From NCBI GenBank assembly GCA_016787785.1, contig JAEUTO010000005.1, positions 372,001-436,000 on the forward strand: a DNA stretch of 64,000 nt. Direction: 5' to 3'. The DNA comes from Bacteroidia bacterium. Its GTDB lineage: Bacteria > Bacteroidota > Bacteroidia > B-17B0 > Aurantibacillaceae. Positions 39,364 to 44,901 of this stretch are shown here, piece by piece. Both the position numbers and the translations under genes were made by a program. Every line of letters begins with the position of its first letter. The first letter of the stretch is position 1. Under the pieces are notes generated by a model. That model ran no database searches. It was not told the origin of the DNA and saw only the letters and a program-made list of their open reading frames with translations.

Positions 39364-41541
39364 TTAAGCTAGTTGTTTTACCTTTTTATACAAATCAACT
39401 AAATGAAAAACAGATAAATCAATCAACGGTTCATACATAAAAGCGTTTACATGAATATTTTCTGGAGTCATTAAATTAACTCGTTCTAGAGTCATTAGAA
39501 TTGATCTATCTGAATTCACTGTCTTAAAATGTTTTAATAGTTCCTGAGTTTGATGTGATGTTATAACCAAAGTATTAGAATTAGGGATTTTGCTCATCAT
39601 ATACTCCTCCGCCCTAAGACGTATAGCAATAGATAAAGTGATTTTATTTTCGAGCAATATTTCATTTACAGTGTTTTGTCTTTCAATTGAGTCTGCAGTT
39701 TCATAGACCAAATCCTTTACGAGTTTAGTGCCAAAGGAAATGCTTTGGTTTGAGGTATTAGAAAAACTAGTATGGATCAAATGAAGTATATCATTACAAG
39801 TAATGCTGCTAGTGTTGGCCTTCAAATGTAAACAAGAAGTAAGCAAGTTGTAATTTGAACTTGCACTACCTTCTGTGTACTCAATTAGATTTCTAATAAA
39901 TGGAATAATGCTTACAAACACTTCCTGATTAGATAGACGTTGTTTGAAATCAGCAAATACATTATTTCTATATTTCCCTTGTAATAATTCAATTTCTCTA
40001 TTATCTTTTTTGATAACCATATAGACAGCTTTCCAGTCTAAATATAACCGGGAGGCAACAGTTCTATAAAAATCGAAATTATGAGTGAGTATTATTAGTT
40101 TGAAATTTGTATTATGATGCAATTCTTTTATATACTCAATAATTGCATATTTATTCTTATAGTCAAATGAATCAGCAATATCATCTAAAATTAATAATGT
40201 TCTTTGATTTAATTGTCTTCTTGATTCTATATCAAATAATAATTGGAGGATATAGAAGGCTTTCTGTTCACCTTTGCTAAGTATAGAAAGAAGTGTATTT
40301 TTATCTTTTCTCACTGGCACCTGGTTATGGTCTTTATAATTAAATTCAAGACTTGCTGTTTCTTCTTTTAATATAACATCTTCTTGATTTATGAGTTTAA
40401 TTTCAAAGGGAACATAAAATCTTTCATTAAAAGTTTTAATAGTTTCTTCCCAGATAACAAATTCCTTTTTTGCTTCTTTGATTATAGCTTCGATTTCTGT
40501 TTTTTTACTTTCGTAAAATTGAACAAGGTCTAATGTTTCTTTTGGAAGTGTTGAAATGTAATTTAACCATACTTTTTTTCTGAAGTCTTCGTACTTTTCA
40601 AGTTCTACTAATAAAACGTTATCTTTTTCAATAGCATTTTTAAAGGACCTGAGTTCGGCGTTAGCTCCTATAGATTTATCAACTTGGTCAAATGACTTTT
40701 TTAGTTTTTCGTCATTAACAATGCTTGTTATTTCTTTTTGAACTAATAATTGTAATTCTTTCGCAGAATTAATTTCTATATTGTCACTAAGTGTAAATTT
40801 ATGCCCTGCGTCAAAATAAGAATTATCTTCAGTTGATTTTAGGAGCTCATTTGCTTGAAAAGTTCCGAACGAATTGTTTGAACCTTTAAAAAATCTTGAT
40901 TTATTTAAAAGGTCGTTATAATTATGAATATATTGAGTTAAAAGAGGTTGATTCTTTTCTAGAAATTTTTTTACATTTCCTTTTTTATCGAAAATATCAT
41001 TGTAACGAAAACTATAAGCTTTCGGTTTGTCAACTAGTAATTTTGAAATATTCAATGTTAATTCAAAGAAAGTATCTTTATGTGATTCACTAAACACACT
41101 AATAAATTCGGTTTCACAGTCAGTGCTTTGTGAAACTTGCTTTAATTTCTTTATATACTCACCCTTCTTTTCATCTAATTCAGAATAAATCGCATCATAT
41201 TTTTTCTTTAAATCTTTACTTGCGATGAATGAACTTATTTTATTCGATGTGTCATAAGTACTGTCTTCTGTATTAACCACTAAAATCGTTTCTGTTGAAA
41301 TAGGATTACCATCAACAAGAATGTTATGTATAGAGGGTCTATTATCATAAACTCGATCACAGGGCATTGTTTTAGCATCGTTTTTCGAAATAAGTTCTAG
41401 CGTTTTTGCGAACGAAGTTTTCATTGTGCCATTTGGTGCATAAATTAGGAAAGAGCCAGTATTAAGTTGAGCAAAGTCAAATTTATGATCTAGTTTACCT
41501 ATTCCAAAGCAATTTTGTAGCTGTATTTCTATTACATTCAT
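39364..41541 (-). CDS. AAA_13-type (ABC/SMC-like) ATPase, putative defence protein
   Basis: A 725-residue ATPase of the RloC/PrrC-like AAA_13 class. The N-terminal Walker A variant is APNGTMKTS (residues 35-43, Met where Gly is usual). A long helical, coiled-coil-like middle (about 90-390) separates it from the ABC signature LSKGEQKAFYILQ (about 417), Walker B LLILDDIADSFD (about 450) and the H-loop ILTHNFDF (about 484). The C-terminal region (about 530-725) ends TPENIHVNAFMYEP and has no recognised anticodon-nuclease motif. It is the first gene of the island and probably its sensor or motor. The ATG at 41541 gives the conserved start IQLQNCFGIGK. Confidence 0.82.
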   Translation of the reverse strand: MNVIEIQLQNCFGIGKLDHKFDFAQLNTGSFLIYAPNGTMKTSFAKTLELISKNDAKTMPCDRVYDNRPSIHNILVDGNPISTETILVVNTEDSTYDTSNKISSFIASKDLKKKYDAIYSELDEKKGEYIKKLKQVSQSTDCETEFISVFSESHKDTFFELTLNISKLLVDKPKAYSFRYNDIFDKKGNVKKFLEKNQPLLTQYIHNYNDLLNKSRFFKGSNNSFGTFQANELLKSTEDNSYFDAGHKFTLSDNIEINSAKELQLLVQKEITSIVNDEKLKKSFDQVDKSIGANAELRSFKNAIEKDNVLLVELEKYEDFRKKVWLNYISTLPKETLDLVQFYESKKTEIEAIIKEAKKEFVIWEETIKTFNERFYVPFEIKLINQEDVILKEETASLEFNYKDHNQVPVRKDKNTLLSILSKGEQKAFYILQLLFDIESRRQLNQRTLLILDDIADSFDYKNKYAIIEYIKELHHNTNFKLIILTHNFDFYRTVASRLYLDWKAVYMVIKKDNREIELLQGKYRNNVFADFKQRLSNQEVFVSIIPFIRNLIEYTEGSASSNYNLLTSCLHLKANTSSITCNDILHLIHTSFSNTSNQSISFGTKLVKDLVYETADSIERQNTVNEILLENKITLSIAIRLRAEEYMMSKIPNSNTLVITSHQTQELLKHFKTVNSDRSILMTLERVNLMTPENIHVNAFMYEPLIDLSVFHLVDLYKKVKQLA

Positions 41542-44183: not shown

Positions 44184-44238
44184 GTCACAAAGTGTCTCCC
44201 TCTGGAGGGAGTACCCGAAGGGGGAGGGAATAAACAAT
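44184..44238 (+). repeat. GC-rich double-hairpin repeat
   Basis: CACAAAGTGT, then CTCCCTC-TG-GAGGGAG, then CCC-GAA-GGG, then GGGAGGGAATAAACAAT. It is a direct repeat of the module at 44295-44362, including the flanking CACAAAGTGT and AATAAACAAT. Confidence 0.7.
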
Positions 44239-44292
44239 ACTATAATTCATAGCCACTATCTTTTATTTTCTTTTTTAATTTCGTCTCATTTT

Positions 44293-44806
44293 GGCGTAAG
44301 CACACAAAGTGTCCCCCTCACGGAGGGGGTGGCGCGAAAGCGACGGGGGAGGGAATAAACAATGAAAATTAACAATCATAATCTTTACAGTAAACATCTT
44401 AAAACATTTGCACATAAAAATAGAAAGCAAATGACAAAAGCGGAAAGTTGTTTGTGGAAGTATATTTTACGCTTAAAACAGACAGGTTTTACTTTTAACC
44501 GTCAAAGACCAGTTTTAAATTACATAGCAGATTTTATGTGTAAAGATCTAAAACTAATTATTGAAGTTGACGGTTATACACATTTAATAGAAGAGGTTAT
44601 TATTAATGATAAGATCAGGCAAAAGGATTTAGAAAATGCAGGATACAGGGTAATAAGATTTAAGGATGAAGAAATTTTAAAAGAAATTGATTTTGTAAAG
44701 GAAAAAATAATACAAATCATAAAAGAGGTAAGACATTAGAGGTCCCTCCCCCGCCCTTTGGGCACCCCCTCCGTGAGGGGGACAAACAACTTTGTGTGCT
44801 TACGCG
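44293..44806. mobile_element. Putative repeat-bounded unit carrying a DUF559 gene
   Basis: The left arm (44293-44353) reads CGTAAGCACACAAAGTGTCC, then CCCTC-ACG-GAGGG, CGC-GAAA-GCG and GGGGGAGGG. The right arm (44744-44806) is its inverted copy: CCCTCCCCC, GCCC-TTT-GGGC, the same CCCTC hairpin, then CAACTTTGTGTGCTTACGCG. The DUF559 gene starts 8 bases after the left arm and stops 4 bases before the right arm. No transposase is encoded, so mobility is inferred from the arrangement. Confidence 0.5.
44362..44739 (+). CDS. DUF559 domain endonuclease-like protein
   Basis: A 125-residue protein of the DUF559 (Vsr/restriction-endonuclease-like) family: MTKAESCLWKYILRLKQTGF, FNRQRPVLNYIADFMCKDLK, LIIEVDGYTHL with the acidic residues of a PD-(D/E)XK-type site, and RFKDEEILKEIDFVKEKI. 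The family is predicted to be nucleases, not characterised well. It is framed by inverted GC-rich repeats, and its ATG is formed within the conserved AATAAACAATG that follows the repeat module. Start ATG 44362. Confidence 0.83.
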   Translation: MKINNHNLYSKHLKTFAHKNRKQMTKAESCLWKYILRLKQTGFTFNRQRPVLNYIADFMCKDLKLIIEVDGYTHLIEEVIINDKIRQKDLENAGYRVIRFKDEEILKEIDFVKEKIIQIIKEVRH

Positions 44807-44901
44807 AATTTGTAGTATAGATTTTATTCGCAAAGCGAATAAAATTATGTGTAACTCATTTAAGTTTAGCTAAACCTTTTCTCTCTGTGCCTATGTGGTT
44901 T
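44791..44901. repeat. CACATAG-type intergenic element (right portion)
   Basis: Contains AACTTTGTGTGCTTACGCGA, a central hairpin ATTTTATTCGC-AAA-GCGAATAAAAT (44821-44845, 11 bp), a GTTTAGCTAAAC palindrome, and the right end CTGTGCCTATGTGGTTT. It is fused to the right arm of the DUF559 unit. Confidence 0.6.

Follow-up and report, generated by a model that had tools for sequence, protein, structure and literature searches.

REP and REPIN sequences are small dispersed palindromes that form inverted pairs around a single gene, occur as gene-less doublets and match in type the lineage of that gene. Rickettsia palindromic elements (RPE) are palindromic repeats that insert in frame in protein genes; we know of no gene that belongs to them. 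Earlier work on intrastrand triplex motifs reportedly includes that of Hoyne et al. in 2000. RPE are named, and part of the REP features compared here described, in the accessible text of PMC3733652. For the bacterial intrastrand triplex motifs (TM, TMECO), Holder et al. (2015) give in vitro evidence of triplex formation by an E. coli motif (PMC4666352). The parts of that paper available to us report the motifs as sites of genome instability, associated neither with transposons, phages or plasmids nor with any functional class of neighbouring gene; they report no partner gene, and the words ‘endonuclease’ and ‘DUF’ are absent from this text. In Legionella pneumophila, repeated segments that contain a DUF559 nuclease together with a transposase are described as recombination hotspots (accessible part of PMC12308824). 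The openly licensed literature, as far as its text was accessible, yielded no published link between DUF559 and these repeats.

The window (the whole 64,000-nucleotide stretch analysed here) holds a DUF559 gene between two inverted modules, with a direct copy of the left module upstream, as a sequence-only reading of this DNA had observed. The features are as follows:

44186..44229, + strand: upstream direct copy of the module, with CACAAAGTGT, hairpin CTCCCT-CTGG-AGGGAG and tail GGGGGAGGGA
44291..44312, + strand: left outer end, GCGTAAGCACACAAAGTGT, with an inverted copy at the right end
44313..44354, + strand: left module, with arm CCCCCTC, loop ACG, arm GAGGGGG, a small GCG hairpin and mirror tail GGGGGAGGGA
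44362..44739, + strand: DUF559 gene, 125 aa, nuclease of Vsr / I-Bth0305I type
44743..44784, − strand: right module, inverted, with gene-facing tail GGGGGAGGGA, a small GCCC hairpin and outward-facing arms GAGGGGG/CCCCCTC
44789..44808, − strand: right outer end, ACTTTGTGTGCTTACGCGAA, forming an inverted pair with the left outer end

The framing of the gene is tight, as the reading had claimed, with figures one base lower than its 8 and 4: the left-module tail ends 7 bases before the ATG, and the right module begins 3 bases after the stop. The outer ends, correctly matched by the same reading, are 95% complementary over 20 nt (44291–44310 versus 44789–44808), and the hairpin arms are 100% complementary over 22 nt (44310–44331/44763–44784). 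The upstream copy carries the same AATAAACAAT and was recovered by the genome-wide module search (as locus L007; loci and genomes are given below by our L and G numbers). Across the 4.6 Mb genome the left module matches seven places (E<1e-4), this locus accounting for three, while DUF559 matches just once, at 44362–44739. A strict two-gap pattern of the module finds five copies in this genome, two of which flank the DUF559 gene, one on each side; the reversed control of that pattern gives no match in 150 genomes. These counts and the empty control indicate that the window copies are not a product of chance.

The outer end GCGTAAGCACACAAAGT (44291–44310) also starts a different, longer dispersed repeat in the window's genome (L009 and L012, from about base 1500), and a longer repeat with this beginning lies near glnA3 in relatives; a second MITE-like family with a common end is possible. 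Elsewhere in the window, a 725-aa protein (39364–41541, − strand) has a start that we take to resemble an AAA-type ATPase of the RloC/PrrC kind, and a Flavo-1 small RNA match (RF01705, 41698–41780, 53.8 bits) is the sole Rfam hit at gathering threshold.

In the DUF559 subfamily of the window, the module reads roughly (GGCACACAG)TATCCCCCTC, a loop of 3–4 nt, GAGGGGG, a spacer and GGGGGAGG-A. The spacer consists either of a few nucleotides or of a second, small hairpin with a sequence-variable stem. The arms covary among copies (CCCCCTC, CCTCCTC, CTCCCT, CCCTCTCC and others), each having its own complement and a matching tail. This G-rich tail of a C-rich/G-rich hairpin is a mirror image of the second arm; in the left window module it agrees with the mirrored arm at 7/7 positions and with the direct arm at 6/7. 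The modules found beside DUF559 genes number 155; the arm is asymmetric in 148, of which 134 also have a tail of sufficient length. Every arm G is matched in 90 of the 134 when the tail is read as a mirror and in 58 when read as a direct copy, against a mean of 39 for permuted arms (maximum 48, 200 runs). At arm A positions the tail base is A in 100 cases, T in 72, G in 20 and C in 8. In an antiparallel triplex of the purine motif, the triads are G on G:C and either A or T on A:T. A tail that copies the arm directly was considered and fits more poorly, although a module-by-module comparison separates the two less clearly: of 144 modules, 54 favour the mirror, 25 the direct copy, and 65 are ties. 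Because of this weaker comparison, and because the module copies are related, we grade triplex formation, going by tail–arm symmetry alone, as likely and not proved.

Folded as single-stranded DNA, five modules do modestly better than their shuffles (z −1.5 to −2.6), with −11.1 kcal/mol for the left window module (z −1.9) and −11.5 kcal/mol for the right (z −2.1). The two arms pair in four of the five, the exception being the upstream window copy, whose first arm pairs with the tail. We therefore refine the earlier view of structured hairpin repeats: the module is an intrastrand-triplex-type motif, a hairpin with a mirror tail, more than a simple hairpin. It has the pyrimidine arm, purine arm and mirror purine third arm (G on G, A/T on A) of that class, and shares with the published motifs the C-rich, G-rich and mirror G-rich arms, a dispersed distribution, some inverted pairs and variation between close strains. 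It differs in the second loop, which spans 12–15 nt and holds its own small hairpin in the two flanking window modules, against 1–6 nt in the search described in the accessible text of PMC4666352; short-loop versions occur in relatives. The modules are of a known kind; the DUF559 partner is new to the literature accessible to us.

A case of the same pairing looks to have been missed in the table of PMC4666352 itself, in the part available. Motif 9 of E. coli K-12 (1351204–1351239) lies about 168 bp downstream of ycjD, annotated as DUF559, whose product is 33% identical to the window protein, has the same domain and is a predicted PD-(D/E)XK nuclease according to the accessible part of PMC1189080. 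The chance that any of 18 motif loci falls within 250 bp is about 0.003, for a case that was not randomly picked. A sapF-ycjD-fabI query is covered to at least 80% in 3,330 of the 5,375 E. coli genomes with a match, and the strains examined that lack ycjD have an efflux operon at that position. This operon is eefRABCD (PMC12817139, as far as accessible), so that the ycjD locus, unlike the window, offers no simple empty site.

The association of modules with DUF559 genes crosses phyla. A first detector, built on the strict exact repeat, was too narrow and missed the two flanking modules of the window; its replacement, a pyrimidine hairpin with a G-rich purine tail, was tuned after the first loci had been seen. 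With this one detector, a module counted for a solitary gene when it lay at most 300 bp upstream or 250 bp downstream. DUF559 matches were present in 94 of the 150 relatives searched. The solitary loci are the best matches among the matches listed; 91 were analysed and 89 kept (L188 gave no hit and L179 a frame of 373 aa), and 96 raw hits including double hits reduce to 93 unique genes. A module lies near 79 of these 93 genes, among the matches listed, whereas after first-order shuffling of these flanks 0.58 genes have one (maximum 3) and distant sequence of the same loci carries 0.05 modules per 300 bp; the rows of this and the other association counts, genes and genomes alike, are phylogenetically non-independent. 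In named genomes of several phyla, a module accompanies 54 of 80 loci (best 80 of 513), against a null of 1.3 (maximum 5) and a background of 0.02 modules per 300 bp. Since the search alignment was led by E. coli YcjD, this set is mostly Proteobacteria, with some Cyanobacteria, Verrucomicrobia, Chloroflexi and Bacteroidia. By the detector, 14 of the 93 solitary genes (among the matches listed) and 26 of the 80 named-genome genes (best 80 of 513) have no module. The flanking of DUF559 genes by the repeat, whose consistency the sequence-only reading had proposed to test, is seen for most genes examined in both sets. Around the 93 solitary genes, the tail faces the gene in 48 of 73 nearest upstream modules and 29 of 40 nearest downstream modules. 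L084 and L085 are tandem duplicates of a DUF559 gene and module unit, about 560–570 bp apart.

We consider that the gene and its modules very probably make up one mobile unit. The best explanation of the unit, which we hold with moderate confidence, is a homing-type nuclease element with triplex-hairpin ends, of which the gene-less modules would be derivatives. The main rival has the modules mobile or expanding by other means (another enzyme, or replication slippage at triplex hairpins) and makes DUF559 genes passengers, inserted or kept at unstable DNA. We judge it unlikely, though the published link of triplex motifs with genome instability (accessible text of PMC4666352) would suit it.

How module copies are distributed bears on both. 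The repeat count called for by the sequence-only reading gives, for the strict window-type pattern, 36 positive genomes of 150, beside the five copies in the window's own genome. Where a window-type DUF559 is present (assigned by hand, protein identity at least 58%), 13 of 14 genomes carry modules, against 23 of the 136 others (p=1.5e-8), these 23, which have modules without a matching DUF559, being in the rival's favour; with the modules beside the gene left out, the enrichment is weak (6/14 versus 23/136, p=0.03). Against it, all strict modules of five genomes lie near the DUF559 gene: the only two flank it, one per side, in G001, G039 and G075, both are just upstream in G013, and all three lie 390–630 bp upstream in G036. 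The fraction beside the gene is 2/5 in G000, 2/3 in G047, 2/6 in G077 and 2/12 in G073. A second module type, that of L050, occurs in 13 of 150 genomes and in none in the control. An L050-like gene (identity at least 61%) is found in six of the 13 (G020, G025, G033, G034, G074 and G106), and the highest counts of this module all fall in genomes with such a gene (25 in G106, 12 in G020, 8 in G025); G011 has a deleted one. The close relative G018 contains four window-type and seven L050-type modules and no DUF559 match, as the passenger account would allow; the gene may have been lost there, or the modules moved by another enzyme.

Across genera, module type goes with the lineage of the DUF559 gene and is not set by the host genome, which speaks against the passenger account. 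Over 79 genes, protein identity correlates with module similarity (Mantel r=0.45, p=0.001, null maximum 0.09), also between genera (r=0.36, p=0.001). Similar DUF559 proteins in different genera have a module score of 27.1 (335 pairs), whereas dissimilar paralogues within one genome average 18.0 (24 pairs), compared with 19.6 for unrelated pairs. As gene and module are linked, the correlation shows joint inheritance as a unit and counts against random capture of local repeats.

One candidate for the other enzyme, a RAYT, is unsupported as mobiliser in the window's genome, where RAYT / Y1 transposase (PF01797) has no match. The 5′ foot of 157 modules shows the REP/RAYT tag GTAG twice and CGTC six times. 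The modules nevertheless have the dispersed palindromes matched to a flanked gene that mark REP systems, along with inverted pairs that enclose one gene, doublets that lack a gene and a type that goes with gene lineage; what sets them apart is a Vsr-type nuclease in place of the Y1 transposase and the third, mirror arm. A REP/RAYT-like relation with DUF559 replacing the transposase, as first suggested from the sequence, gains support from the flanking counts, the missing PF01797 and the empty and filled sites described below.

The window protein belongs to DUF559 (PF04480; E=4e-30, 104.3 bits, cut-off 20.6) and keeps E68, D70, D83 and R99, which are invariant across a 37-member alignment. An AlphaFold2 model (37 family members, pLDDT 89.7) has as its nearest solved structure the DUF559 protein 3hrl (Foldseek E 2.7e-7, profile E 8e-33). 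The catalytic domain of the homing endonuclease I-Bth0305I (3r3p; Foldseek E 8e-5, profile E 1.2e-6) also matches, and E. coli Vsr comes next as a weak match (E=0.03). By sequence and model, the protein thus resembles a homing endonuclease. PADLOC ranks a methyl-directed restriction enzyme model first (E=7.4e-6) and a homing-endonuclease model second (E=1.5e-5). Some DUF559 loci (L048, L055 and L075) adjoin what are presumably restriction genes. A Caulobacter methyltransferase mutant requires the DUF559 protein VsrA for its DNA-damage response (accessible part of PMC12907096), which fits DUF559 as a DNA-cutting enzyme. Pairwise dN/dS is 0.02–0.19 in seven of eight comparisons, some with saturated dS (>1), the eighth giving no value; by this measure the gene is under purifying selection.

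The likeness to I-Bth0305I covers catalytic-domain sequence and fold and extends to insertion into conserved genes, with empty alleles at LeuRS sites. In contrast to 3r3p, a mobile intron protein, the DUF559 insert stays in frame and has triplex-type module ends, and no intron or intein carrier was seen. The frames concerned are long DUF559 proteins, planned as a negative control on the supposition that they were helicase fusions. Pfam rejected this and revealed in-frame insertions into housekeeping enzymes, which made them unusable as a control. All 24 that were scanned, from 27 distinct long frames of relatives (L043, L044 and L045 left out), are DUF559-interrupted enzymes: LeuRS in 15, MetH in eight and HsdR in one. 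The reading frame is continuous, and the Pfam scans of these 24 proteins found no intein domain at the cut-offs used. Among 14 DUF559 proteins scanned from named genomes, a scan that left out some shorter fused frames, 11 have a recognisable host enzyme (class I tRNA synthetases three, MmeI four, and a radical SAM enzyme, TrpC, TrpF and RimM one each) and three show no other family; the RimM case, with DUF559 ahead of the RimM domains, is possibly a simple fusion.

Hairpins stand on both sides of the inserted domain in 22 of 28 cases, compared with 13 of 329 background windows. The full module test finds 12/28 upstream, 18/28 downstream and 7/28 on both sides, against 7/329 in background. In a separate count over the long proteins, a module stood just before the domain in 10/28 and after the reading frame in 0/28. 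The in-frame units mostly have their tails outward, opposite to most solitary genes, a polarity that the model we propose does not explain. One leuS frame (L026, in G079) contains two separate in-frame DUF559 domains, at positions 112–213 and 501–600.

At orthologous sites, units and modules have been gained and lost, judging from the states found side by side. LeuRS site A, readable in 24 of 26 aligned genomes, has module, DUF559 and module in G034, G037 and G035, a module alone in G018, G006 and G002, and no module in 18 genomes including G000; G011 and G025 may retain a tail scar. G034 and G035 have one leuS match each, and the second match of G037 is a module at the ssb site, so the DUF559-bearing leuS is apparently the sole leuS gene in these three. 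This coexistence of gene-bearing versions at the same sites distinguishes the modules from RPE. In another leuS loop, an in-frame module without a DUF559 gene is present in the window's genome, G020, G025 and G006 and absent from G018, while several of the 18 aligned genomes have other repeats in this loop. The leuS loop near KKLWRLF (L150, L151, L153, L155, L156, L164) is a hotspot for different in-frame palindromic repeats, including the TTCGACTCCGCTCAG type, which is also found at the amidohydrolase junction of G007.

The window site itself varies. G020, whose glutamine synthetase fragment is 99% identical to that of the window, retains both left modules and the intervening spacer nearly unchanged and diverges exactly at the tail end; this site has neither DUF559 gene nor right module, and the closest DUF559 of G020 is on another contig (L049). 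G018 has no module here and the same 3′ flank as the window. At an amidohydrolase site (gene present in 39 of 40 genomes, 30 loci read), G020, G034 and G025 have module, gene and module, G002 has a decayed gene, and G011 keeps both modules with the gene deleted except for its first bases; the junction has no module in the other 25 of the 30 loci, G007 and G010 among them. The ssb site carries a module or remnant, with differing arms, in six of eight genomes and none in G018 and G034. Empty and filled states, for which the sequence-only reading had advised looking, therefore exist at the window, amidohydrolase and LeuRS A sites and, for the module, at ssb. Flanks at these four sites are too diverged for a target-site duplication to be defined.

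These sites also speak against a regulatory account, in which the hairpins are terminators, attenuators or operator sites for the DUF559 gene and other copies are further targets of its protein. The window tail ending so close ahead of the start codon and the purifying selection on the gene would agree with it. We nonetheless find it very improbable, given modules on both sides of the gene, modules inside LeuRS and MetH reading frames and in leuS without the gene, and orthologous sites that alternate between empty, module and full. There is equally little to recommend a Vsr-like defence or repair nuclease acting on or against triplex repeats, adjacency being targeting and not mobility: the VsrA phenotype in Caulobacter, the top PADLOC match and the neighbouring restriction genes suit it, but it leaves unexplained why entire units come and go at orthologous sites and why they insert in frame into LeuRS, MetH, TrpC and TrpF.

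We return to the homing-type element with triplex-hairpin ends and suggest how it might work. The modules would be the ends of the unit: their pyrimidine and purine arms would pair, and the mirror G-rich tail could fold back to supply the third strand. Each DUF559 protein would recognise modules of its own type, reading the triplex fold, and would break or nick DNA at the target; repair would then copy the module-bounded unit into the target. A unit that loses the gene and keeps its ends would leave gene-less modules behind, which would account for the dispersed ones. Since translation can pass through a module without meeting a stop, a unit can take up residence in frame in an essential gene and endure there as an additional domain of the protein. 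Not all of these parts are equally secure. That DUF559 is the mobiliser, the nuclease itself moving the repeats, seems probable; on whether third-strand folding matters we are evenly divided; and a homing-like break and copy, the route we favour, falls slightly short of even. A single-strand route as in IS200/RAYT elements, with folded ends as substrate, is possible and would produce the same anatomy.

Tentatively, and with more doubt than belief, we extend the idea to bacterial intrastrand-triplex repeats in general. These widespread repeats may be the ends and miniatures of a large, so far unrecognised class of nuclease-only mobile elements. On this view a Vsr/homing-type DUF559 enzyme would read a triplex-folded end and not a linear site, would need no transposase, integrase, intron or intein to move, and would time and again insert in frame into essential enzymes (LeuRS, MetH, TrpC and others), giving them a nuclease domain that is not spliced out. 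Tying the modules to one nuclease family would give many small bacterial repeats a testable source. It would also suggest a candidate enzyme for reading triplex folds, and a nuclease that exists as a built-in domain of essential enzymes. As E. coli K-12 has both parts, a DUF559 gene and a triplex motif, the idea can be tested there.
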